From Amycolatopsis sp. 195334CR (GTDB taxonomy: Bacteria > Actinomycetota > Actinomycetes > Mycobacteriales > Pseudonocardiaceae), in assembly GCF_017309385.1 (NCBI RefSeq), contig NZ_JAFJMJ010000001.1:3410001-3474000 (forward strand): DNA of 64,000 nucleotides. The letters run 5' to 3'. The translations under genes and the position numbers were made by a program. Position 1 is the stretch's first letter; each line of letters begins with the position of its first letter. The notes below the pieces were generated by a model that was given only the letters and a program-made list of their open reading frames with translations, was not told the DNA's origin and made no database searches. Below, in pieces: positions 8,352 through 56,982 of the stretch.

Positions 8352-8398
8352 GTGAATGTGGCTTTCACCGCGGAATGCGCGGTGAAAGCCACATTCAC
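8352..8398. repeat. Palindromic repeat, copy 1, probable two-way terminator
   Basis: A perfect inverted repeat with 21-bp arms (8352-8372 and 8378-8398) around a 5-nt loop; the outer arm is GTGAATGTGGCTTTCA. It lies between the convergent ends of the second aldo/keto reductase and hisS. The same 16-bp core occurs at 40059-40113 and 53160-53214. The hairpin lacks a U-tract, as is common in high-GC actinomycetes, but placement suits a bidirectional terminator. Confidence 0.85.
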
Positions 8399-40058: not shown

Positions 40059-40113
40059 TGCAGTGAATGTGGCTTTCACAGCGTCAGACGCTGTGAAAGC
40101 CACATTCACTGCA
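40059..40113. repeat. Palindromic repeat, copy 2, 27-bp perfect arms
   Basis: Arms 40059-40085 and 40087-40113 are exact inverted copies around a single base; they contain the GTGAATGTGGCTTTCA core shared with copies at 8352 and 53160. It lies between the convergent glpD and acyl-CoA ligase genes. The TGA inside the right arm is the stop codon of the ligase gene, so the repeat also sets that protein's C-terminus. Confidence 0.9.
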
Positions 40114-46242: not shown

Positions 46243-46836
46243 TTACGGACTTGGCGTCGAGTTCGTCTTGAGAGCCGAGTCACCCTCGCGGGTCAGCTCG
46301 TCCATCGGCGGGAAGCGATCCGCGATGGATTTCTCCAGGAAATCCCCGACCCAGCCATCTGTATCGTGGAAGAACCGAATGGACACGTAATCCGGCTTCG
46401 TGCCCATGTCGAACCAGTGCGTGGTCTTCGCCGGCACGCTGAGCAGATCGCCCGCGGTGCACAGCACGGCGTGCACCTTCCCCGCCAGGTGCAGGTAGAA
46501 CACGCCGGAGCCGCGCGCGAAGAAGCGGTCCTCGTCGTCGTCGTGGGTGTGCTCGCTGAGGAACTTCGCCCGCGCTTCGGCCGCGCCGGGATCCTCCGGG
46601 CTGAGGCTCTTGACGTCGACGAAGGTGTAGCCCTCGGTGCGGATCACCTCGTCGACCTCGGCGCGGTAGGCGTCGAGCACCTGCTCCTCGGTCGGCGTGG
46701 CGGGCAGCTCCCGCACCGGCCACCGGTCGAACTTGACCCCCAGCTCGCCCAGCACGGCGCCGATCTCCTCGGCGTCGGTGGTGCGCCGGAGCACCGTGGC
46801 GGGATCTTGCTCCGCCCAGACGGTCAGCAGGGTCAT
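46243..46836 (-). CDS. mtnD: Acireductone dioxygenase
   Basis: 197 residues, cupin metalloenzyme of methionine salvage that cleaves acireductone with O2 to the keto-acid precursor of methionine (Fe form) or to an off-pathway product with CO (Ni form). The metal motif is HTHDDDEDRFF (His, His, Glu), with a further His in TTHWFDMGT. ATG at 46836 is chosen for AAAGGTGG upstream; GTG 46845 is an alternative. It follows mtnB by 22 bp, last gene of the salvage run. Confidence 0.95.
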   Translation of the reverse strand: MTLLTVWAEQDPATVLRRTTDAEEIGAVLGELGVKFDRWPVRELPATPTEEQVLDAYRAEVDEVIRTEGYTFVDVKSLSPEDPGAAEARAKFLSEHTHDDDEDRFFARGSGVFYLHLAGKVHAVLCTAGDLLSVPAKTTHWFDMGTKPDYVSIRFFHDTDGWVGDFLEKSIADRFPPMDELTREGDSALKTNSTPSP

Positions 46837-46858
46837 GATGGCCACCTTTCACCTGTTC

Positions 46859-47479
46859 TCACTGGGGAGACCCCTCGAATGCACGGTACAAGCGGGTTCT
46901 GAAGCGGAGCAGCCATTCGAGGCACTCGAGGCGCTGGCGGGCGTGGGCGAGGTCGTCGCCCCAGACGTAGATGCCGTGCCGCGCGACGATCAGCGCCGGG
47001 GTGTCGGCGCGGAACCCGGCTTCGAAGGCGTCCCCGAGCACGCGCATGTCCTGGTCGTTCGGCACCACCGGCACGGTGACCAGGTCGTCGTGCGCGCGGC
47101 GGCCGAAGCCCTTGAGCATCTCCAGGTCGCGCAGTTCGACGCCGTCCGGCCAGAACTCGGCGGCGAGCACCGGCGCCATCGCGTGGACGTGCACCACCGC
47201 GCCCGCGCCGGCCACCCCGGCGATCCGCGCGTGCAGGCCCGCTTCGGCCGACGGCGCCTGGTCCTGGCCGGGCACGGCCTGGCCGTCGGCGTCCACTTCG
47301 ACCACGTCCTTCGCGGTCAGCGCGCCCTTGTCCAGCCCGCTCGCGGTGACCGCCAGCCGCAGCGGATCCCGGGAGAGCGTGACCGAGAGGTTGCCCGAGG
47401 TGCCGCGCATCCAGCCCATCGCCTCGTAGCGCGCGGATTCGGTGGCGAGTGCGCGTCCGGCCAGGTCGAGCACGCTCAT
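46859..47479 (-). CDS. mtnB: Methylthioribulose-1-phosphate dehydratase
   Basis: 206 residues of the class II aldolase/adducin family. GWMRGTSGNLSVTLSRD is the phosphate-binding start; metal ligands lie in VVHVHAMAPV and VARHGIYVWG. Removes water from 5-methylthioribulose-1-phosphate in methionine salvage. The start overlaps the mtnC stop by 4 bp (ATGA), fixing both ends and the operon. Confidence 0.94.
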   Translation of the reverse strand: MSVLDLAGRALATESARYEAMGWMRGTSGNLSVTLSRDPLRLAVTASGLDKGALTAKDVVEVDADGQAVPGQDQAPSAEAGLHARIAGVAGAGAVVHVHAMAPVLAAEFWPDGVELRDLEMLKGFGRRAHDDLVTVPVVPNDQDMRVLGDAFEAGFRADTPALIVARHGIYVWGDDLAHARQRLECLEWLLRFRTRLYRAFEGSPQ

Positions 47480-48195
47480 CCGAGCCCGATTTCAAGGTCG
47501 TCGAACGAAGCCACCGTGCGGTGCAGGCCGAAGTCGGCCTTCTCGTACGGCTCGCCGGACCGCGCCAGGCCGACGACCTGCCAGCCCGCGGTCTTCGCGG
47601 CGTCCAGTTCGGCCGGGACATCGGAGAGGAACAGGATCTCCGAGGGCAGCGGGTCGCCGAGGCCGTGCGCGATGGCGTGGTAGGAGGCGGCTTCGCGCTT
47701 CGGGCCCGCGTTCACCGTGTCGAAGTGGTGCTGGAAGAACGGGCGCAGATCGCCCTCGGTGGTGTTGGAGAAGGAGGCGATCTGGCCGGGCACCGAGCCG
47801 GAGGAGAACACGGCCAGCGCCAGGCCGCGGTCGCGCCACGCCCGCAGCGCCGGGACCACGTCCGGGAAGTACTCCGAGGTCAGTTCCCCTCGGGCGTAAC
47901 CCTGTTCCCAGATCAGTCCCTGCAAGGTCTTGAGCGGGGCGGCTTTTTTGTCCTCGTCCATCCAGGAATGCAGTACGCGCACCACTTCCCCGGTACCCGC
48001 GTCGGCGGGCAGGCCGCCCTCGGTGCGGGTCGCCTCGACCGCCTCGGTGACCCGCGGGTCCTCCGGGTGCTCGTCGATCCACGGGCCGAGCCGGGGCCGG
48101 GCGTAGTCGTAGAGCACCACGTGGACCTGGCTGGTGGCGGTCAGCGTGCCTTCGATGTCGAGGACCACCCAGCGGGTGGTCAGCTGCTCGCTCAC
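47476..48195 (-). CDS. mtnC: Acireductone synthase (enolase-phosphatase E1)
   Basis: 239 residues of HAD type, converting the diketone phosphate to acireductone by enolisation then dephosphorylation. Motif I is VVLDIEGTLT, the DxEGT form typical of MtnC. Later motifs are FSSGSVPGQ, GPKREAASY and LFLSDVPAELDAAKTAGW. GTG start at 48195 after AAGGAG; the frame remains open upstream through a hairpin-rich spacer, but that extension has no family similarity. Stop overlaps mtnB start. Confidence 0.94.
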   Translation of the reverse strand: MSEQLTTRWVVLDIEGTLTATSQVHVVLYDYARPRLGPWIDEHPEDPRVTEAVEATRTEGGLPADAGTGEVVRVLHSWMDEDKKAAPLKTLQGLIWEQGYARGELTSEYFPDVVPALRAWRDRGLALAVFSSGSVPGQIASFSNTTEGDLRPFFQHHFDTVNAGPKREAASYHAIAHGLGDPLPSEILFLSDVPAELDAAKTAGWQVVGLARSGEPYEKADFGLHRTVASFDDLEIGLG

Positions 48196-48347
48196 GATTC
48201 TCCTTGTCGTCGGCCGCGCCTTCGGCGCGGCGGGCGAGGTCGCCGGGAAGCCGAGGGCTTCCCTCGGCACGTCAGACCGCTGGGCGGCCTGACGCACCTC
48301 AGTCCAGCCCTCGGCGCGACCTCGCGATGTAAGTGGTGAAGCGGTCG
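48196..48347 (-). other. Hairpin-rich spacer between mtnA and mtnC
   Basis: About 150 bp on the operon's transcript able to form three successive stems: GTCAG/CTGAC around CCGC/GCGG, a strong GCCGAGGG/CCCTCGGC with 3-nt loop, and CCGCGCC/GGCGCGG with loop GAA ending 15 bp before the mtnC start. It may be a dispersed repeat, an RNA-processing or attenuation site, or an untested riboregulator; I see no match to a SAM riboswitch. Confidence 0.5.
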
Positions 48348-49358
48348 TCACGGTTCTACTTGCTCGTAGTACTGGTTCAGGTGCGCCGGGCCCAGTGGAC
48401 CACGGTCGGTGACCACGGTGGTGACGAACTCCGGCGGCGTCACGTCGAAGGCGGGGTAGAGGCCCTGGACGCGGGTGCTCGCGGTCCGCCGCCCCAGGGT
48501 GTGCAGGACGTCGTCGCCGTCGCGGTATTCGATCGGGACGTCGGCGGCGGTCGGCGCGGCGCGGTCGGGGGCCTGCACCTGGGCGTGGAACGGCACGCCG
48601 AACGCCTTGGCGGCCACCGCCAGGCCGAGCGTGCCGATCTTGTTGACCACGTGCCCGTCCATGCTGACCCGGTCCGCGGCGGTGACCAGCGCGTCCACCA
48701 GGCCCTGGCTGAACAGCGAGGCCCCCATGCCGTCGGTGACCAGCGTGGTCGGCACGCCCATCTCCGCCAGCGTTTCCGCGGTCAGCCGGGCGCCCTGCAG
48801 GTACGGGCGCGTTTCGGTGCAGAAGAAGCTCAGCTCCTTGCCGCGCCGCTGGGCCGCGGCCACGGTCTCGGTCAGGTACAGATCGGCCCAGCAGTGCGTG
48901 AGCACCCTGGCGCCGTCCGGTAGCAGGTCCACTGTGTACTCACCGAGCGCGCGGCTGCGGGCGCGGTACAGCTCGTCCCCGGCCCGGGCGCCCCGGAGTG
49001 CCGACTCGACGACATCGCCGTCGTCTTTGTCCACTTCGGACAGCACGGCGCGCACGGCCTTGCCGAGGTGGTTGTTCGTCGACCGGCTGGCGATCAGCCG
49101 GTCGCCCGCCACCCCCAGCGCCGCCCGCGCCTCGTCCCGGGGCAGGTCCGCGGCCGCGCGCGCGGCCAGCACCATGCCCCACAACGCCGCGAAGTACGGG
49201 CCGGAGGACTGGGTGACCATGTCCTCGATCGCCTTGGCCACCTCCTCGACCGTGCGGCAGTGCACCCACACCCGCTCGAACGGGAACACCCGCCGGTCGA
49301 GGATGTGCACGCCGTCGTCGGCCAGGCGCACGCTGTCGGCCAGGATCGGGGTGGCCAT
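48348..49358 (-). CDS. mtnA: MtnA-like methylthioribose-1-phosphate isomerase
   Basis: 336 residues of the eIF2B-alpha/MtnA/ribose-1,5-bisphosphate isomerase family. Catalytic Cys is in VLTHCWADLYL and Asp in LVTDGMGASLF; ETRPYLQGARLTAETL and DGHVVNKIGTLGLAVAAK are family signatures. The usual CNTG around the Cys is CWAD, so it is a variant clade. Isomerises methylthioribose-1-phosphate to the ribulose form. ATG 49358 overlaps the stop of the monooxygenase-like gene by one base (TGATG). Context with mtnB, mtnC and mtnD supports the role; a ribose-1,5-bisphosphate isomerase is the alternative. Confidence 0.85.
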   Translation of the reverse strand: MATPILADSVRLADDGVHILDRRVFPFERVWVHCRTVEEVAKAIEDMVTQSSGPYFAALWGMVLAARAAADLPRDEARAALGVAGDRLIASRSTNNHLGKAVRAVLSEVDKDDGDVVESALRGARAGDELYRARSRALGEYTVDLLPDGARVLTHCWADLYLTETVAAAQRRGKELSFFCTETRPYLQGARLTAETLAEMGVPTTLVTDGMGASLFSQGLVDALVTAADRVSMDGHVVNKIGTLGLAVAAKAFGVPFHAQVQAPDRAAPTAADVPIEYRDGDDVLHTLGRRTASTRVQGLYPAFDVTPPEFVTTVVTDRGPLGPAHLNQYYEQVEP

Positions 49359-50515
49359 CAGCTGTACCCGGTGACCGGCGGGAACTCGCCGTCGAGCAGG
49401 TTCCGGCCGACCTCGGTGGCCTTGTAGGCGACCGGATCGTGCAGGGTCAGCGTGCGGGCGTTGCGCCAGAACCGGTCCATGCCGTACTTCGCGCCGGTGG
49501 CCCGCGCGCCGGTCAGCTCGAAGACCCGGTTGCCGATCTCCAGCGCCACCTCGGTGCTGACCACCTTCGCCTTGGACAGCAGGATGCCGAGTTCGCCGCG
49601 CTTGTGCTCGTCGATCTCGCGCGCGGCGTCGTCGAACGCCGCGGCCGCCGCGTCCACCAGCAGTTCCGCCGCGGTCAGCCGGGAGGCCAGCGTGCCGTAG
49701 GCGGCCAGCACGTGCGGGTCGTCGGCTGCTCTGTCCACACCAGACAGTGGCCAGGCGCGGGAGCTCTCACTGGTGTAGCGCGCGCCTTCGGCCAGCGCAC
49801 CACCGGCGATGCCGACCTGCACCTGGGCGAGCAGCAGCTGGAAACCCAGCGGGGCCAGCGAATCCCGCCAGCGCCGGGGTTCACCCTCGCCGGGCTGGTG
49901 GCCGAGCAGTTCGGTCTCGGGCACGAAGACGTCGGTGAACTCGACGCCGCCGCTGGCCGACAGGCGCTGCCCGAGGTTGTTCCAGTCACCGAGGAACCGG
50001 ACGCCCTCGGTGCGCGCGGGCAGGGTGAAGGTCGCCTTGCGGTCGCTGCCCGTCCAAGTGCCACTGACGATCAGTTGGTCGGCCACCGAGGCGCCGGTGG
50101 CGAAGAACTTGCGGCCGTGCACGGTGAACCCGCCGTCGGCGGGGCGCAGTTCGAGCGCGGCGTCCCGCGGATTGCTGACCCCGGCCCAGAACCAGTTGCC
50201 CGCCGCGCTGTCCCGCTCCAGCCGGTCCGCGATCGGGGTGTCGAAGAGCCTGGTGCGCCACAGCTGGAAGTAGTGGTACCCGAGCAGGTGCCCGAGCGAG
50301 CCGTCCGCGACGGCGATCCGCCGGATCACCCGGTGGGCCAGTGGCCAGTCGCCGCCCGCGCCACCGTGCTCGGCCGGGATGAGCAGGCGCAGCAGGCCGG
50401 ACTCCCGCAGCAGCTCGATCTCGGCACGGGGTTCGGCCCCGCGTTCCTCCCGCTCGACCGCGTCCCCGCGCAGCTTCTCGGCGACCTCCGCCGCCACCGC
50501 CTGCCAGTCACTCAT
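49358..50515 (-). CDS. Acyl-CoA dehydrogenase-fold flavin monooxygenase (DszC/SfnB-like)
   Basis: 385 residues with the acyl-CoA dehydrogenase fold: RLLIPAEHGGAGGDWPLAHRVIRRIAVADGS, FFATGASVADQLIVSGTW, FNLGQRLSASGG-type middle strand (WNNLGQRLSASGGVEFTDVFVP) and a helical C-domain (SRLTAAELLVDAAAAAFDDA). The catalytic Glu of true acyl-CoA dehydrogenases is not evident, and sequence resembles DszC/SfnB, FMNH2-dependent oxygenases acting on organosulfur compounds. It overlaps both the nucleoside phosphorylase (8 bp) and mtnA (1 bp). An organosulfur oxidation linked to methylthio salvage is a reasonable inference. The flavin reductase partner is not in the operon. Confidence 0.8.
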   Translation of the reverse strand: MSDWQAVAAEVAEKLRGDAVEREERGAEPRAEIELLRESGLLRLLIPAEHGGAGGDWPLAHRVIRRIAVADGSLGHLLGYHYFQLWRTRLFDTPIADRLERDSAAGNWFWAGVSNPRDAALELRPADGGFTVHGRKFFATGASVADQLIVSGTWTGSDRKATFTLPARTEGVRFLGDWNNLGQRLSASGGVEFTDVFVPETELLGHQPGEGEPRRWRDSLAPLGFQLLLAQVQVGIAGGALAEGARYTSESSRAWPLSGVDRAADDPHVLAAYGTLASRLTAAELLVDAAAAAFDDAAREIDEHKRGELGILLSKAKVVSTEVALEIGNRVFELTGARATGAKYGMDRFWRNARTLTLHDPVAYKATEVGRNLLDGEFPPVTGYS

Positions 50516-51254
50516 CCGCCTGCCCCATCCCGATCAACGCGTCCAGCACCACACCGGTGGCCCGGTGCACCCCGTCGGCGACCACGTCGCGGTGGGGGTC
50601 GTAGGTCGACGGCCCCACGTCGTCGCCCGCCGCGTTGCCGTCGATCACCAGCGCACCACCCGCCGCCAATCCATTCAACCCGGCGAAAACGAACAGTGCC
50701 GAAAGCTCCATCTCGATCGCGATCACGCCGGCGGCGAGGTACTCGCGCATCGGCAGCCGCAGCACGCCGGGGGAGAACGCGGCCCGCGTCCAGACCACGC
50801 CGCGGTGGAACGGCACCTGGTGCGTGCGGGACGCGCCGACCAGCGCCGGAACGGTTTCCGCGGTGGCGAAGGCCGGGTACTCCGCGGGCACGAGCTGCTG
50901 GCTGACGCCGTCGTCGCGGACCGCCGCCTCGGCGATCACCAGGTCGCCGCTGTGGATGTCCTTGCGCAGCGAGCCCGCCGTGCCGAGCCGGAGGAAGGTG
51001 TGCACGCCCGCCTCGGCGAGTTCGGCGAACGAGCAGACCGCGCCCGGTCCGCCGACCCCGTGCGACGCCACCGTGACCGGAGTCCCGCGCCAGGAACCGG
51101 TGTACGTGCGGTACTCGCGGTTCTCCCCGGCTAGTTCGGCGTCGTCGAGCCGGGCCGCGATGTCGGTCGCGCGCTGTGGCGCGCCGACCACCACCGCCAG
51201 CGGGGGCAGCCCCGATCGGGGGATGCCGGTGACCGGCAGCGTCGAACCTGTCAT
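50508..51254 (-). CDS. NP-I family nucleoside phosphorylase
   Basis: 248 residues, uridine phosphorylase/DeoD-like hexameric type rather than the trimeric PNP at 21 kb. Signatures: ASHGVGGPGAVCSFAELAEAG, LRLGTAGSLRKDIHSGDLVIAEAAVRDDG and the ribose-binding IEMELSALFVFAGLNG. Splits a nucleoside with phosphate to base and ribose-1-phosphate. ATG start overlaps the permease stop (ATGA). Between a nucleoside-type ABC importer and methionine-salvage genes, methylthioadenosine or a relative is a likely substrate, giving methylthioribose-1-phosphate for MtnA. That assignment is inference. Confidence 0.85.
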   Translation of the reverse strand: MTGSTLPVTGIPRSGLPPLAVVVGAPQRATDIAARLDDAELAGENREYRTYTGSWRGTPVTVASHGVGGPGAVCSFAELAEAGVHTFLRLGTAGSLRKDIHSGDLVIAEAAVRDDGVSQQLVPAEYPAFATAETVPALVGASRTHQVPFHRGVVWTRAAFSPGVLRLPMREYLAAGVIAIEMELSALFVFAGLNGLAAGGALVIDGNAAGDDVGPSTYDPHRDVVADGVHRATGVVLDALIGMGQADE

Positions 51255-52105
51255 GTGGTGCTCCTTTCGCGGCGGAAGAGCCGCTGGGAAAACAGGGCCA
51301 GCAGGGTGACCACGTACGGCGCTGCGTCGGTCGCCTGCTGCGGCAGGCCGAGGCCCTGCAAGCGGAAGCCGAGGCCTTCGGCCAGGCCGAACAGCAGCGC
51401 GGCCAGCAGCACGCCGACCGGTGCGGCCATGCCGAGCATCACCGCGACCACGGCGATCCAGCCGCGTCCGGCGGTCATGTTCTCGGAGAACAGCGTCACG
51501 TTGCCCAGCGCCAGTTGCGCGCCGCCGAGCCCGCACAACGCACCGCCGGCGATGATCACGCGGTAGCGCTCGCGGGCCACGTTCACCCCGAGATTGGCCG
51601 CCGCCTCGGCGTTCTCACCGATGCCGCGCACCTTCAGGCCCCACGTGGTGCGGTAGAGCAGGAAGGCGAGCACGGCGACGGCCACCCACGCGGCGTAGAC
51701 CAGCGGCGAATGCCCGAACAGCACCGGGTCCAGCCCGCGCAGGCCGGGGTCGCTGAAGCTGCCGGTGGTGCCGAAGACGGTTCGCAGCAGGAAACCGGTC
51801 AGGCCGACGGCCAGCAGGTTCATCGCGATCGACAACACGATCGGGTCCCCGCCGAGCGCCACCGAGCCGATCGCCAGGATCAGCGAGTACGCCGCCGACG
51901 CGAGCACCGCGGCCAGCACGCCGAGCCACGGGTTGCCGGTGAACCAGCTGCCAGCCACCGCGGCGAAGCAGCCGACCAGCATGGTGCCTTCGAGCGAGAT
52001 GTTGAACACGCCCGCGCGCTGGCACAGTGCCCCGGCCAGCGCGGCGAACAGGATCGGCGTGACCGCGCGCAGCACGGACGAGAGCAGGGCGAGGTCGAAG
52101 TTCAC
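51251..52105 (-). CDS. ABC importer permease (BMP/nucleoside type, second)
   Basis: 284 residues, about eight to nine membrane helices, branched-chain/nucleoside permease family (YufQ/NupQ-like). ALCQRAGVFNISLEGTMLVGCFAAV and the cytoplasmic coupling segment RTTWGLKVRGIGENAEAAANLGVNV are characteristic. GTG start at 52105 overlaps the stop of the first permease gene; its own stop overlaps the phosphorylase start. Confidence 0.93.
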   Translation of the reverse strand: MNFDLALLSSVLRAVTPILFAALAGALCQRAGVFNISLEGTMLVGCFAAVAGSWFTGNPWLGVLAAVLASAAYSLILAIGSVALGGDPIVLSIAMNLLAVGLTGFLLRTVFGTTGSFSDPGLRGLDPVLFGHSPLVYAAWVAVAVLAFLLYRTTWGLKVRGIGENAEAAANLGVNVARERYRVIIAGGALCGLGGAQLALGNVTLFSENMTAGRGWIAVVAVMLGMAAPVGVLLAALLFGLAEGLGFRLQGLGLPQQATDAAPYVVTLLALFSQRLFRRERSTT

Positions 52106-53130
52106 CGCGCACCCGCTTTCCGCCGGTTGAGCAGCCCGGTCGCGGCGGCCAGGAAGATGATGATCACGGCTTGCAGCACCGCCGTCAGTTCGCGGGGGGC
52201 CTGCGTCACGCGTTCGGCCTCGAAGCCGCCGTTGGTCAGCGCCGCGAAGAAGAACGCGGCGATCACCGTGCCCAGCGGGTGGGCCCCGGCGAGCAACGCG
52301 GCCAGCAGGCCGATCCAGGTGTAGGTGGGGGTGATCAGCGCGCCGTCGATGAACCGGTGCGGGAAGCCGAGCACCATGATCGCGCCGACCAGCCCGGCGA
52401 GGCCGCCGGAGGTGGCGAGCACGCGCAGCGTCAGGCGTGGCCTGCTGATCCCGGCGTACGCGGCGAACCGCGCGCCGAGGCCGGTCATCCTGATCTCGTA
52501 GCCGATCGGGGCGCGGGCGTCGATCACCACGTACGCGACCGCGGCGACGGCGACCAGGACGAGCCCGATCCCGGTGACCTCGATGGCCACGCCGTCCGGC
52601 AGCCGTTCCGACTGGGGCAGGCTCGAACCGGCGTCCGCCAGCGGGAACCGCACCAGGTAGGAGGCGAAGGACATCGCCGGGTAGCTCAGCAGCAGCGTGC
52701 TCACCAGGAGCGGGACGCCGAGCTTGTTCTCGAAGAACGCGGCGAGCGCGGCGTACGCGGCCCCGGCGAGCGAGCCGCCGAGGAGCGCGAGGATGACGGT
52801 CGGCACGGCGGGCAGTGGACTGGACAACCCGATCACGGTGCCGGCGATCGCGCCGAGCACGAGCTGGCCCTCGCCGCCGAGGTTGACCATGCCCGCCCGG
52901 AGCGGGACCGCCAGCGCGACGGCCATGCCGACCACGGGCACCGCGTACGCGAGCGTGCCGGGGAAGCCGTCGGCGCCGAACGCGCCGGTGATGATCGAGG
53001 AGTACGCGCTGAGGGGGTCGGCGCCGGTGCCGGCGAGGATGAGCGTGCCCAGCACGAAGGCCCCGAGCAAGGCGACCACCACCGCCCAGCGGCGCCGCCC
53101 GGAGGAGGCCATCCCGGTCCAGCGGCTCAT
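52102..53130 (-). CDS. ABC importer permease (BMP/nucleoside type, first)
   Basis: 342 residues, about ten membrane helices, YufP/NupP-like. Landmarks are AVPLRAGMVNLGGEGQLVLGAIAGTVIG and the coupling helix IGYEIRMTGLGARFAAYAGIS. Pairs with the following permease. It is separated from the ATPase gene upstream by ~110 bp holding palindromic repeat copy 3, the only real gap inside the importer genes. Confidence 0.93.
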   Translation of the reverse strand: MSRWTGMASSGRRRWAVVVALLGAFVLGTLILAGTGADPLSAYSSIITGAFGADGFPGTLAYAVPVVGMAVALAVPLRAGMVNLGGEGQLVLGAIAGTVIGLSSPLPAVPTVILALLGGSLAGAAYAALAAFFENKLGVPLLVSTLLLSYPAMSFASYLVRFPLADAGSSLPQSERLPDGVAIEVTGIGLVLVAVAAVAYVVIDARAPIGYEIRMTGLGARFAAYAGISRPRLTLRVLATSGGLAGLVGAIMVLGFPHRFIDGALITPTYTWIGLLAALLAGAHPLGTVIAAFFFAALTNGGFEAERVTQAPRELTAVLQAVIIIFLAAATGLLNRRKAGAR

Positions 53131-53159
53131 GCGAGGCCTCCCGGTCGCGGCCTCGGTCG

Positions 53160-53214
53160 TGCAGTGAATGTGGCTTTCATAGCGTCAGGCGCAGTGAAAG
53201 CCACATTCACTGCA
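53160..53214. repeat. Palindromic repeat, copy 3, imperfect, inside ABC operon
   Basis: Same outer arm (TGCAGTGAATGTGGCTTTCA) as copy 2, with mismatches near the centre. It lies between the ATPase and first permease genes, both on the minus strand, unlike copies 1 and 2, which sit between convergent genes. As a stem-loop it could reduce read-through into the permeases or mark a processing site. Confidence 0.85.
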
Positions 53215-53239
53215 TCGGCCACCACAGCGCAGCGGCGGG

Positions 53240-54679
53240 TCATGAGGGTTCTCCTGCCATGGCCAGGCCGAGGCGTTCCTCGGTGGCCTCTTCGCGGGAC
53301 AGTGAAGCGACGATCCGGCCGTCGAAGAAGACGATCACGCGGTCCGCCAAGCCCCGGATTTCGCTCAGCTCCGCGGAAACCACCACGATCGCGTGTCCGG
53401 CGTCCCGGTGGGCGACGAGTTCGGCGTGGATGTCGCGCACCGAACCGATGTCCACACCCCGGGTCGGCTGCTCGGCGATCAACAATGGCGCGTCGCGCGT
53501 GAGTTCCCGGCCCAGCAAGGCTTTCTGCTGGTTCCCACCGGAGAGCACCCCGATCGGAGCGGTCACCGAAGCCGCCTTCACGTTGAACCGCGAGACGATC
53601 TTCTGCGCGTGCGCGCGCATCTTCGCGGGCGAAAGCAGGCCGCTCCGGTGATATCCGACGACCAGGTTCTCGGCGAGGCTCGCCGTCTGCGCCGAGCCGA
53701 CCTCACCCCGGTCCTCCGGCAGGTACGCGACCGCGGCACGCGTGAGCGGCTTACCCAGCAACGAGACGCTGCCCGTGAACGCCCGCAGGCCCGCGAGTGC
53801 TTCGGCGAATTCGCTCTGCCCGTTGCCCGCGACCCCGGCTACCCCGAGGATCTCCCCGGCCCGGACGGTCACCGAAGCGTTGTCCACCAACGGTTTCGTC
53901 CCGCCCGCCACGGTCAGCCCGCGCACGTCCAGCACCACGTCGCCCGGGGTTCCCGGCGGCTGGATGACGTCGAGTTCGATGTCGCGGCCGGTCATCGCGC
54001 GGGCGAGGTCGGCGGCGGTGGTGTCCGCGGTCCGCAACCCGGCGACACGACGGCCGTCTCGCAGCACCGTCACGCGAGAGCTGATCGCCAGCACCTCGCG
54101 CAGCTTGTGGGTGACCAGGATGACGCTGCGGCCTTCGGCGGCCAGCTCGCGCAACACCTCGAACAGCCGGTCGGCCTCGGCGGGCGTGAGCACCGCGGTC
54201 GGCTCGTCCAGGATGAGGATCCGGGAATCGCGGTACAGCAGCTTGAGGATCTCGACCCGCTGCCGCACGCCGATCGGCAGGTCCCGCACGCGGGCGTCCG
54301 GATCGAGGCCGAGGCCGTACCGCTCGATCAGCCCGGCCACCTCGGCACGTGCCTTCCGCGCCAGCACACCCCGGTTGTAGACCACGTTCTCGGTCACGGT
54401 CAGCCCGCCGAACAGCATGAAGTGCTGGTGCACCATGCCGATCCCGGCGGCGATCCGGTCGGCGGGCCCGTGCCCGCGCGCCGGTTCGCCGAGCAGTTCC
54501 ACGCTGCCTTCGTCCGGCCGTTGCGTGCCGTACAGAATGGACATCAGCGTGGTCTTGCCCGCGCCGTTCTCCCCGACCAGCGCGTGGATCTCGCCGCGGT
54601 CGACGCTCAGGTCCACGCCGTCGTTGGCCAGGACCCCGGGAAAGCGCTTGGTGATCCCGCGGAGTTCGACCGCGGTCAT
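53240..54679 (-). CDS. ABC importer ATPase with two nucleotide-binding domains
   Basis: 479 residues, fused double ATPase of the sugar/nucleoside (RbsA, YufO/NupO) type. First domain: Walker A GENGAGKTT near 36, Q-loop HQHFMLF, Walker B ILILDEPTAVLTP, and a divergent signature (IGVRQRVEILK). Second domain: degenerate Walker A (GVAGNGQSE), intact signature LSGGNQQKALLGREL, and LLIAEQPTRGVDIGS. Having one degenerate site is normal for this type. The ATG at 54679 overlaps the substrate-binding lipoprotein stop (ATGA). Confidence 0.94.
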   Translation of the reverse strand: MTAVELRGITKRFPGVLANDGVDLSVDRGEIHALVGENGAGKTTLMSILYGTQRPDEGSVELLGEPARGHGPADRIAAGIGMVHQHFMLFGGLTVTENVVYNRGVLARKARAEVAGLIERYGLGLDPDARVRDLPIGVRQRVEILKLLYRDSRILILDEPTAVLTPAEADRLFEVLRELAAEGRSVILVTHKLREVLAISSRVTVLRDGRRVAGLRTADTTAADLARAMTGRDIELDVIQPPGTPGDVVLDVRGLTVAGGTKPLVDNASVTVRAGEILGVAGVAGNGQSEFAEALAGLRAFTGSVSLLGKPLTRAAVAYLPEDRGEVGSAQTASLAENLVVGYHRSGLLSPAKMRAHAQKIVSRFNVKAASVTAPIGVLSGGNQQKALLGRELTRDAPLLIAEQPTRGVDIGSVRDIHAELVAHRDAGHAIVVVSAELSEIRGLADRVIVFFDGRIVASLSREEATEERLGLAMAGEPS

Positions 54680-55707
54680 CCGGCGGCGGGGTCGGTCACC
54701 TTGATGGTGCCCGCCACGATCTCGTCCCGCAGTTTCCGCACCTGCTCGATGACCTCCGGGTGCTGCGCGATGACGCACTGCGAGGTGGCCACGTCCGGCA
54801 GCAGGCCGTTGAGCCCGAGCCCGTCCTCGGCCAGGCCGTACGACCGCGCGGTGCCCGGCTGACCGTCCAGAATGGCCTTGATGCCGTCCGCGATCACCAC
54901 GTCGGTGCGCTTGACCACGTTGTCCACCACCTGACCGGGGCTGGCCGGGCACTGGTTGGCGTCCACCCCGTAGGCGAAGAACCCGCCCGCCTTGGCCGCC
55001 TCGAACACGCCGAGGTTCCCGGCCGCCGAAGCCGCGCCCATCACCTGGTCGACGCCGTTCCCGGCGAGCGTGCCCGCCAGTTCCTTCGCCCTGGCCGGGT
55101 CGTTGAACGGGTTCTGCCCGCCGATGAACAACTGGCTGAACACCACGTCCGGGCGGGTCTTCCTGGCGCCCTCGCCGAACGGGTCGGAGAACCGGTGGAA
55201 CTGCGGGGAATCCAGCACCACCACCGCGCCGACCTTGCCGGTCTTGGTCAGCAGGCCCGCCTGCGCGCCGGCCAGGTAGCTGGCCTCGTACTCGCGGAAG
55301 GTGGCGCAGGTGACGTTCGGGAACTGCTTCTCGGTGCAGGAGTCGACGAACAGGAACTGCTGCTGCGGGTTGCGCTCGGCCTCCTGCGCCAGCACGTCGG
55401 CGAAGTTGAAGCCGACCGCGACGATCACGTCCGGCTTGTCGCGCACGGCGGCGGCGACGTTCTGCTGGATGCTCGCCGGATCGCTGCTCTCGTAGGTCCG
55501 GGTGGTGGCGCCGTGCGCCTGCGCGGCGTCACCGATGCCCTTCACGGACAGCTTGAGGAAGTCGTTGACGCCGACCGGGTTCGGGGTGACGAGCACGAAC
55601 GACTTGCCGTCGGCCGCGGGCGCGGCGGCCTGGTTCGAGGACGCGTTGCAGGCCGCGGTGGCGAGCAGCACGGCCGCGGCGATGGGGAGCAGTACAGGGC
55701 GGGGCAT
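54676..55707 (-). CDS. BMP-family substrate-binding lipoprotein
   Basis: 343 residues. Lipoprotein signal ends in LATAAC (Cys20). The mature protein matches the BmpA/PnrA family of nucleoside-binding proteins: VGVNDFLKLSVKGIGDAA, DVIVAVGFNFADVLAQEA, SYLAGAQAGLLTKTGKVGAV and AGGFFAYGVDANQC. First gene of the importer run; ATG with GAAGGA upstream. BMP proteins bind purine nucleosides, which with the downstream phosphorylase suggests nucleoside or methylthionucleoside import. Confidence 0.93.
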   Translation of the reverse strand: MPRPVLLPIAAAVLLATAACNASSNQAAAPAADGKSFVLVTPNPVGVNDFLKLSVKGIGDAAQAHGATTRTYESSDPASIQQNVAAAVRDKPDVIVAVGFNFADVLAQEAERNPQQQFLFVDSCTEKQFPNVTCATFREYEASYLAGAQAGLLTKTGKVGAVVVLDSPQFHRFSDPFGEGARKTRPDVVFSQLFIGGQNPFNDPARAKELAGTLAGNGVDQVMGAASAAGNLGVFEAAKAGGFFAYGVDANQCPASPGQVVDNVVKRTDVVIADGIKAILDGQPGTARSYGLAEDGLGLNGLLPDVATSQCVIAQHPEVIEQVRKLRDEIVAGTIKVTDPAAG

Positions 55708-55761
55708 GGGGATCCTTCGCTAGCCGGGAGTCCACATGCTAAAGCCGATTCGGCACGGTGA

Positions 55762-56274: not shown

Positions 56275-56982
56275 GTGGCTGCTCCGCGTTCGATCGTGGT
56301 CACCGCGGTGCTGGCGGTGCTGGTGACGGCGGGTGCGCTGGTGACCGCGGTGCTGTTGCGCCCGGACGCGCCGCGCACCGCCGTGCCGGGGGCGGGCGGG
56401 GTGCCGACGTCCTCCGGCACCGGTTCCGAATGCGGGCCGAGGGCGTGCCAGGTGCTGGCCAGCCAGCCGGTCAAGGGCACCACGGCCGAACTGCTCGCCG
56501 ACCCGGAGGGCCGCTCGGCGCACGTGCGCTTCGGCGGGCTCGGCTCGGACTTCGTGCTGGAGAGCGCACTGGCCTCGATGGAGGTGGCCGTCGGCCAGGA
56601 CTCGCTGCAGTGCGTGGACGGCCCGCTGGCGGCCTGCCTGGTGCACGGCGACTACCAGGGCGGCGAGATCGCCGAACTGCTGGTCGCGCCCGCGGACACC
56701 TGGCGCCAGTCGGACCGGCTGTACTTCTCCGACGCCGGCCGCGTGCTGCTCGCGCAGGTGGCCGGGGACGCGGCGCCGGAGGTGGTGGTCGTGCGGCACG
56801 AATGCGCCTCGGCCGCACCGGCCGCGCCGGGGTGTCCGCGCGGGCCGGTGCTGGCCGAGGTCTTCGATCTGAGTGGGAAGCAGACCGGCTGCACCAAGCG
56901 CTACTCGACGCCGTCGCAGCTGCGGGGCTGGCCGGACGTCCGGCTCAGCGAAGCCGATCTGCGTCCCTGCCCGACTTCGTGA
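56275..56982 (+). CDS. Membrane-anchored extracytoplasmic protein, unknown function
   Basis: 235 residues from GTG 56275, set by AGAGGAGGGG upstream. An N-terminal hydrophobic helix (SIVVTAVLAVLVTAGALVTAVLL) without a clear cleavage site anchors a ~205-residue outer domain with seven cysteines (in SECGPRACQV, LQCVDGPLAACLV, HECASAAPAAPGCP and QTGCTKR), plus one near the C-terminus, so several disulfides are likely. No family recognised. The 3' end is 6 bp from the stop of the convergent symporter. Confidence 0.8.
   Translation: MAAPRSIVVTAVLAVLVTAGALVTAVLLRPDAPRTAVPGAGGVPTSSGTGSECGPRACQVLASQPVKGTTAELLADPEGRSAHVRFGGLGSDFVLESALASMEVAVGQDSLQCVDGPLAACLVHGDYQGGEIAELLVAPADTWRQSDRLYFSDAGRVLLAQVAGDAAPEVVVVRHECASAAPAAPGCPRGPVLAEVFDLSGKQTGCTKRYSTPSQLRGWPDVRLSEADLRPCPTS

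Follow-up and report, generated by a model that had tools for sequence, protein, structure and literature searches.

Why would a bacterium keep an ATP-binding cassette (ABC) importer of a nucleoside-binding family in one run with genes of methionine salvage? The question is raised by a 64,000-nucleotide stretch from Amycolatopsis sp. 195334CR, which we call the window (G000:C1:3410001-3474000, G000 being the source genome of 9.9 Mb; all bare coordinates below are window positions). Its minus strand carries, from 55707 down to 46243, genes for a BMP lipoprotein, a double ATPase, permease 1, permease 2, an NP-I family nucleoside phosphorylase (NP1), a flavoprotein, and mtnA, mtnC, mtnB and mtnD (Table 1). 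These ten genes, their order and their strand were listed in a preliminary description made from the letters of this DNA, and they are borne out by the open reading frames (ORFs) and by domain searches. The same description spoke of a superoperon, a term that overstates the unity of the locus. Judged from the loci that we compared, the importer and NP1 are an optional, removable cassette on a core operon, flavoprotein-mtnACBD. As to function, we consider it fairly probable that an exogenous 5'-methylthio (or 5'-deoxy) purine nucleoside is imported, phosphorolysed by NP1 and converted to methionine by the mtn core.

The division into core and cassette is seen within the family Pseudonocardiaceae. 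A flavoprotein search of 390 family genomes gave a match in 218 at E <= 1e-60, many of these being more distant paralogs. We read 35 family loci: 31 were chosen from the flavoprotein matches, L220, L225 and L226 for having NP1, and L224 for having the flavoprotein without NP1. The flavoprotein, mtnA, mtnC, mtnB and mtnD stand together on one strand in 34 of the 35, the exception being L105; L075 is counted among the 34 though a contig end cuts it before mtnD, and only permease 2 of its importer is visible, the contig beginning there. Upstream of the core, 13 of these 34 loci have importer genes together with an intact NP1, and neither is complete in the other 21, L224 holding an NP1 fragment. 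Among the 31 loci chosen by the flavoprotein, 10 have the cassette and 20 do not; in L073 and L101 the sequence goes no further than about 1.1-1.4 kb ahead of the flavoprotein, which makes the absence of the importer less sure there. The split of 13/0 against 0/21 corresponds to a Fisher p of 1e-9, for loci that are related and partly picked and hence are not independent events. Two congeners are the most direct illustration. When the window is compared by blastn with the locus of G406 (L068), exactly the cassette stretch of Table 1 has no counterpart there. This stretch reaches from shortly before the BMP start to shortly before that of the flavoprotein; the flanks are 86-91% identical, and the core is present with no importer or NP1. 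In G393 (L224) no importer was found, NP1 is in broken pieces and flavoprotein-mtnACBD is kept; a further congener, G381 (L225), has everything. From these natural absences in G406 and G393 we conclude that the cassette comes and goes without the core, and that NP1 leaves together with the importer.

To which of the two parts does the flavoprotein belong? The preliminary description let it handle an oxidised or alternative sulfur compound. That it serves the imported substrate we had to reject, since the 21 loci without importer or complete NP1 keep it on mtnACBD, and beyond Pseudonocardiaceae it is missing from the NP1 loci, apart from L169. By its neighbourhood the flavoprotein is part of the core, not of the cassette. 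Its nearest solved relatives (8cda, MsuC 6u76, TdsC 5xb8 and DszC 3x0x) place it with the two-component flavin monooxygenases DszC, MsuC and SfnB. It is a relative of these and not a member, as it stays far below the equivalog cut-offs (SfnB 269.9 against 430.9, DszC 266.8 against 850), and it differs from them also in sitting in a methionine-salvage core. Our guess is that it is probably a flavin mononucleotide-dependent monooxygenase for an organosulfur by-product of salvage.

The preliminary description named a lack of conserved linkage in relatives among the results that would refute it. This outcome did not occur: several families show linkage of the importer with NP1 and mtn genes, and the order of the genes varies. 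Within Pseudonocardiaceae, NP1 is found in 29 of the 390 genomes (E <= 1e-50); 25 copies adjoin the flavoprotein by coordinates, and G299 was confirmed by reading its locus (L220). There the flavoprotein and mtnA each match in two overlapping pieces, like frame breaks (L220 10286-11448 and 11558-12570), which may be a sequencing error. G580 (L221) and G596 (L222) have the importer, a window-type mtnA and NP1, followed by an aldolase in L221, with none found in L222, and G342 has NP1 alone within the 19.5 kb read. Among 296 sampled genomes of the phylum, three besides the window's own gave NP1 matches above 150 bits (227, 167 and 157 bits; 51, 46 and 42% identity). No BMP or mtn gene was seen at L090 and L091; at L092 there is a related importer with a deaminase, and no mtn gene in the stretch.

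We scanned a contig collection for two peptide patterns taken from the alignment of NP1 and obtained 112 relatives; all counts out of 80 refer to the best 80 of these 112. At least one mtn gene is present in 67 of the 80 loci and importer genes are likewise present in 67; 64 loci have both and ten have neither. All four importer genes occur in 63, and 62 of these also have an mtn gene. Since the source genome has two BMP loci in its 9.9 Mb and the linkage recurs in relatives, the grouping of the genes is, in our opinion, more than chance. A deaminase is found in 60 loci, in every case on the strand of NP1 and within 200 bases of its end. The closest solved relatives of the deaminase of L120 are the methylthioadenosine (MTA)/S-adenosylhomocysteine deaminase 4f0r (289 bits) and the amidohydrolases 4dzh (285) and 4dyk (261). 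The flavoprotein has a match in 14 of the 80, never in a deaminase-bearing locus; 13 are real, and L169 is a distant match of 34% on the other strand. In most Streptomyces loci the order is mtnD-mtnC-mtnB, next an mtnA on the opposite strand, and after it BMP-ATPase-permease-permease-NP1-deaminase; their mtnA is 66-71% identical to the Yinghuangia mtnA of L116, which passes TIGR00512.

Other partners occur as well. L124, L128 and L221 combine the importer, a window-type mtnA and NP1 with a class II (fuculose-aldolase-like) aldolase, with no mtnB, mtnC or mtnD in the stretch, and this arrangement looks like a nucleoside-fed shunt of the dihydroxyacetone phosphate (DHAP) type. In 11 loci of the 80 (L116, L122, L123, L126, L127, L130, L167, L175, L177, L178 and L185; seven with importer), a molybdopterin-domain protein that weakly matches MsrP and a reductase of flavin adenine dinucleotide (FAD)/nicotinamide adenine dinucleotide (NAD) type stand directly after NP1 or the deaminase; the pair may point to S-oxide chemistry. 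In Streptomyces and its relatives NP1 also has the glycerol genes glpF and glpD as near neighbours (L126, L130, L138, L139, L142, L145, L160, L166, L172, L174, L181 and L184), and no importer genes were found at these loci except permease 2 in L138 and L181. A tree of NP1 (96 rows, 92 of them different, several being the same genome twice, e.g. L079 and L108) gathers the flavoprotein-type sequences of Pseudonocardiaceae in a single group (97/96) that includes the long-branched L223; a deaminase-type pair from Actinomadura joins this group with weaker support (95/65). L124, L128, L221 and L222, the last without an aldolase in its stretch, form one clade (100/98).

What NP1 acts on has to be judged from its residues. 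Its best NCBIfam model is uridine phosphorylase TIGR01718, where it reaches 156.5 bits and the cut-off is 280.3. The MtnP model TIGR01694 is absent from its 14 NCBIfam matches, as is the methylthioinosine phosphorylase model PRK09136. Over 90 aligned rows, at least four of them duplicates, D205, G206, the three Arg at 28, 46 and 89 and the stretch E181-M182-E183 are invariant; the Arg presumably bind phosphate. In a profile alignment with 5znc, 2bsx, 8w7h and 1sq6, D205 of the window falls on residue 206 of the purine nucleoside phosphorylase (PNP) of P. falciparum (PfPNP), which we take to be its purine-binding Asp. Opposite Gln166 of E. coli Udp, the rows printed have V, L, F, P or H, and none of the 90 has Gln; Gln and Arg are, we assume, the uracil-site residues of uridine phosphorylase. 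With its score below the cut-off, the purine-type Asp and no Gln at that position, we rejected NP1 as a true uridine phosphorylase, and the Asp in all 90 rows supports a purine-type NP-I phosphorylase. Position 8 is I, V or L in all 90 rows; it aligns with the DeoD His and lies one before the aligned PfPNP stretch. His7 of PfPNP and the corresponding His of DeoD presumably hold the 5'-OH, and the 5' pocket of NP1 looks more hydrophobic than usual, an indirect hint that it may prefer MTA or methylthioinosine to ordinary nucleosides. A predicted model of NP1 (predicted local distance difference test, pLDDT, 86) resembles the PNPs of apicomplexans, MTA phosphorylases and uridine phosphorylases to about the same degree, and we dropped structural ranking as the decider, since it did not separate the rival substrates.

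For the receptor, a PDB search gives Lbp (7x0r), 4pev, BmpD (6shu) and PnrA (2fqw) as the solved relatives of the window BMP. BmpA contacts its nucleoside through a stacking Phe pair and an Asp/Asp/Lys set (PMC13325309). The window protein keeps the stacking F50 and F201 and the ribose-binding D122, D249 and K266, a site mapping that we infer by alignment, and by this Phe pair and Asp/Asp/Lys set it is predicted to be the receptor of a BMP nucleoside importer. In BmpD the Asn after the first stacking Phe takes part in a water network at the base (PMC7093131). All 12 aligned BMPs with linkage to NP1 have Leu beside that Phe (L51 in the window), and the other BMP of the genome has Asn there; four Cys are common to nearly all of the 12. 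The importer thus has the receptor, double ATPase, two permeases, base-stacking Phe and ribose-binding Asp/Lys of PnrA, BmpD and BmpA, and differs from them in the Leu for Asn, the shared Cys and the linkage to methionine salvage. The name putative vitamin B6 ABC transporter, which NCBIfam equivalogs offer, was rejected on scores (BMP 71.4 below 400, ATPase 399.4 below 670, permeases 126.2 below 465 and 136.0 below 400).

One may ask whether this is simply an ordinary nucleoside importer with a phosphorylase for adenosine, inosine or uridine, working in carbon or base salvage and sharing an upstream promoter with the mtn core. The BMP relatives of known ligand do bind ordinary nucleosides (PMC7093131, PMC13325309), and the top NCBIfam name of NP1 is uridine phosphorylase. 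However, the second BMP importer of the genome adjoins a pyrimidine phosphorylase gene and fits a general nucleoside role, so that the window importer is an extra one, and the genome has a PunA-type PNP as well. The purine-type Asp of NP1, the lack of Gln at the Udp Gln166 position, and the fact that the linkage to mtn recurs in other gene orders, along with the linkage to a gene like MTA deaminase, also speak against it, and altogether we find this explanation unlikely. A different proposal would keep the machinery and change the substrate: 5'-deoxyadenosine, a by-product of radical-SAM (S-adenosylmethionine) enzymes, would be turned into 5-deoxyribose-1-phosphate, with the mtn core a partner by history. 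The cassettes of L124, L128 and L221, with mtnA and a gene like fuculose aldolase, resemble published 5-deoxyribose clusters (PMC6079011), and the deaminase of the relatives also matches a 5'-deoxyadenosine deaminase model, below the cut-off. Nevertheless, the window and most of the Streptomyces loci have mtnB, mtnC and mtnD as partners, whose products work on methylthio intermediates, and we regard 5'-deoxyadenosine as the true substrate as quite improbable.

It could also be thought that the imported nucleoside is S-oxidised, MTA sulfoxide for example, and that partner redox enzymes set the state of its sulfur. The pair of molybdopterin-domain protein and reductase described above would suit such a role, and the window flavoprotein does come from a sulfur-oxidising group. 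Yet a monooxygenase oxidises sulfur and does not reduce it, the flavoprotein stays where the importer is missing, and in 69 of the 80 loci no molybdoprotein pair was found; we give this idea very little credence.

Import of a 5'-methylthio (or 5'-deoxy) purine nucleoside also faces objections of its own, which we collect here. The names offered by NCBIfam, with scores under their cut-offs, would suggest uridine and vitamin B6. The mtnA of the operon is divergent, scoring 282.3 over the cut-off of 271 for PRK05720 but 204.2 under that of 279 for TIGR00512, and a second, canonical MtnA is encoded at G000:C1:4095945. The source genome also has a canonical MtnP elsewhere, besides its PunA-type PNP. 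At first sight NP1 would therefore be superfluous for endogenous MTA, which is true of the source genome and had to be given up for the family: MtnP is over its cut-off in 3 of the 26 family genomes checked, and MtnK over its cut-off was found in none of the 26. Since MtnP is so rare and MtnK is not seen, NP1 might serve endogenous MTA in some genomes. Fourteen of the 26 have no complete NP1 beside the core (13 loci were read; G542 was judged from the coordinates of its flavoprotein and mtnA). Six of these 14 (G383, G308, G376, G368, G680 and G674) have a single PF01048 gene with the core present; this gene is a weak MtnP match of 67-85 bits, as is the PunA-type PNP of the source genome, and neither MtnP nor MtnK is over cut-off in the six. 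The operon-type mtnA is the sole IF-2B family match in G296-G298, G368, G680 and G674, all of which keep the core.

In our opinion the idea of a dedicated uptake-and-salvage route, as put forward in the preliminary description, is supported in part: the conserved linkage, the purine-type residues of NP1 and the hydrophobic residue in place of the N-terminal His support it, and the part assigned to the flavoprotein does not hold. The route would begin with capture of the nucleoside by the BMP lipoprotein and its passage through the ABC importer, a step suggested by family and linkage. In the Streptomyces-type relatives the linked deaminase would then turn MTA into methylthioinosine. NP1 would phosphorolyse the purine nucleoside to 5-methylthioribose-1-phosphate, its purine type read from residues and its 5' specificity assumed. 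MtnA, MtnB, MtnC and MtnD would carry this on to 4-methylthio-2-oxobutyrate, and a transaminase would yield methionine; this order of Mtn steps up to 4-methylthio-2-oxobutyrate is general pathway knowledge, whereas the gene families are what is seen here. The window operon has neither a deaminase nor a transaminase gene. The scores of mtnB, mtnC and mtnD assign them to recognised methionine salvage families; mtnD is the only PF03079 match over cut-off in the source genome and has no NCBIfam match. The substrate of the cassette is most likely MTA or 5'-methylthioinosine, and perhaps 5'-deoxyadenosine, as far as residues and neighbours allow one to say.

The layout of the locus deserves some comment. 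The longest ORF begins too early in four genes, and we placed the starts from the sequence: NP1 from 51536 to an ATG at 51254, the ATPase from 54952 to 54679, mtnC from 48351 to a GTG at 48195 and mtnD from 46845 to an ATG at 46836. The ORF 46833-47621 is not mtnB, whose reading frame is the one in Table 1. The ends were said to be mostly overlapping, and six of the nine junctions do overlap, by 1-8 bases: BMP/ATPase, permease 1/permease 2, permease 2/NP1 and mtnC/mtnB by 4 each, NP1/flavoprotein by 8 and flavoprotein/mtnA by 1. Gaps of 109, 152 and 22 bases separate ATPase from permease 1, mtnA from mtnC and mtnB from mtnD. In Actinophytocola xinjiangensis (L118) the junctions of the whole run are, by our gene calls, 7, -4, -4, -4, -4, -1, -4, -4 and 12. 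We infer a single transcript over the ten genes from the overlaps and the conserved order, and it stays at that because no promoter-like site was found at the locus and terminator-like sites are at the shuffled level, not above.

Table 1. Features of the run of ten genes and of its cassette, in window coordinates
Feature	Position	Strand	Evidence
BMP/PnrA-family nucleoside-binding lipoprotein, putative importer receptor	54676..55707	-	Pfam PF02608 131 bits; PDB matches; alignment
Double ATP-binding cassette protein of the importer	53240..54679	-	ABC_tran 151 bits, two stretches; ATG 54679; ATGA overlap with BMP
Permease 1 (BPD_transp_2)	52102..53130	-	88 bits
Permease 2 (BPD_transp_2)	51251..52105	-	126 bits
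NP1, NP-I family nucleoside phosphorylase, purine-type Asp205	50508..51254	-	PNP_UDP_1 PF01048 135 bits; alignments; residue counts
Importer and NP1 cassette	50539..55722	-	stretch absent from congener G406 (blastn of window against L068)
DszC/MsuC/SfnB-like flavin monooxygenase, first core gene	49358..50515	-	acyl-CoA-dehydrogenase-fold domains; alignment
mtnA, methylthioribose-1-phosphate isomerase family, divergent subfamily	48348..49358	-	IF-2B 168 bits
mtnC, acireductone synthase (enolase-phosphatase)	47476..48195	-	TIGR01691 211.6 over cut-off 128.1; GTG start
mtnB, methylthioribulose-1-phosphate dehydratase	46859..47479	-	TIGR03328 167.9 over cut-off 137.05
mtnD, acireductone dioxygenase (ARD)	46243..46836	-	PF03079 93.6 over cut-off 27

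Several smaller observations concern the spacers and surroundings. The 152-base spacer between mtnA and mtnC (48196-48347) has a similar length in L067 and L068, and in the congener L066 the genes abut. No Rfam match that would suggest riboswitch control was found in the window or in seven related loci. A short inverted repeat with arms GTGAATGTGGCTTTCA and 15 bases between them occurs in three copies, at 8352-8398, 40063-40109 and 53164-53210; this makes six arm matches in the window against 0.01 expected, and the third copy lies inside the ATPase/permease gap. L067 carries the repeat in the matching gap, each arm with one mismatch; L066 is without it, and in L068 a copy lies elsewhere. ARAGORN calls a tRNA-Thr(cgt) at 52806-52897, within the permease 1 gene, which is probably spurious. 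Upstream of the operon a divergent plus-strand ORF (56296-56982) is kept by the gene caller and has no Pfam match. We did not count accA as part of the operon: it lies 3' of mtnD in L066-L068 and not in the other loci compared.

How much of this is new? The parts are all of known kinds, and within the open-licence literature searched the novelty is their combination as a removable cassette on different downstream routes. With universal methionine salvage (MtnP, MtnA, MtnB, MtnC, MtnD) the window shares the mtnA, mtnB, mtnC and mtnD families in one run; it differs in its linked first-step enzyme, where an NP-I protein from the uridine-phosphorylase/PfPNP branch takes the place of MtnP, and in the added importer and flavoprotein. 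P. aeruginosa deaminates MTA to methylthioinosine before phosphorolysis (Guan et al. 2011, 2012, cited in PMC6302742). The Streptomyces-type relatives likewise pair a deaminase with a purine-type NP1; here, unlike there, an importer is attached, and NP1 scores as a relative of uridine phosphorylase with no PRK09136 match. The 5-deoxyribose disposal clusters contain a phosphorylase or kinase, an MtnA-like isomerase, a class II aldolase and some transporters, four published clusters showing putative sugar transporter genes (PMC6079011). L124, L128 and L221 are alike in these parts, and our loci differ in that the importer is a BMP nucleoside importer and in that the route of the window leads into mtnB, mtnC and mtnD and not to an aldolase.

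As for uptake, R. rubrum uses MTA as a sulfur source by an uptake route that is unsettled, a methionine transporter being offered as a guess (PMC4958253), and work on a methylthioribose transporter is pointed to in PMC6302742. In PMC13325309 the one place that speaks of methylthioadenosine is about a nucleosidase. Among the open-licence papers that our literature searches listed, none links a BMP importer to methionine salvage in its title or the start of its abstract, and none names a bacterial importer of MTA there.

One could tentatively go a step further and suppose a portable actinobacterial cassette for foreign 5'-methylthio or 5'-deoxy purine nucleosides, which would be plugged into methionine salvage, into an MTA-deaminase route or into an aldolase (DHAP) shunt, in some loci with sulfur-redox enzymes; we regard this wider picture as possible and speculative.

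The salvage of MTA is usually viewed as internal recycling. If the import of MTA-type nucleosides is true, this would be, to our knowledge, the first dedicated bacterial importer for them, and it would correct annotations that name a uridine phosphorylase or a transporter for vitamin B6. The natural pairs of presence and absence inside one genus allow a direct test, for which there is now a defined gene set. Given such an importer and a phosphorylase to go with it, MTA and related compounds would be nutrients that are traded, and there would by implication be trade in this sulfur waste in soil.

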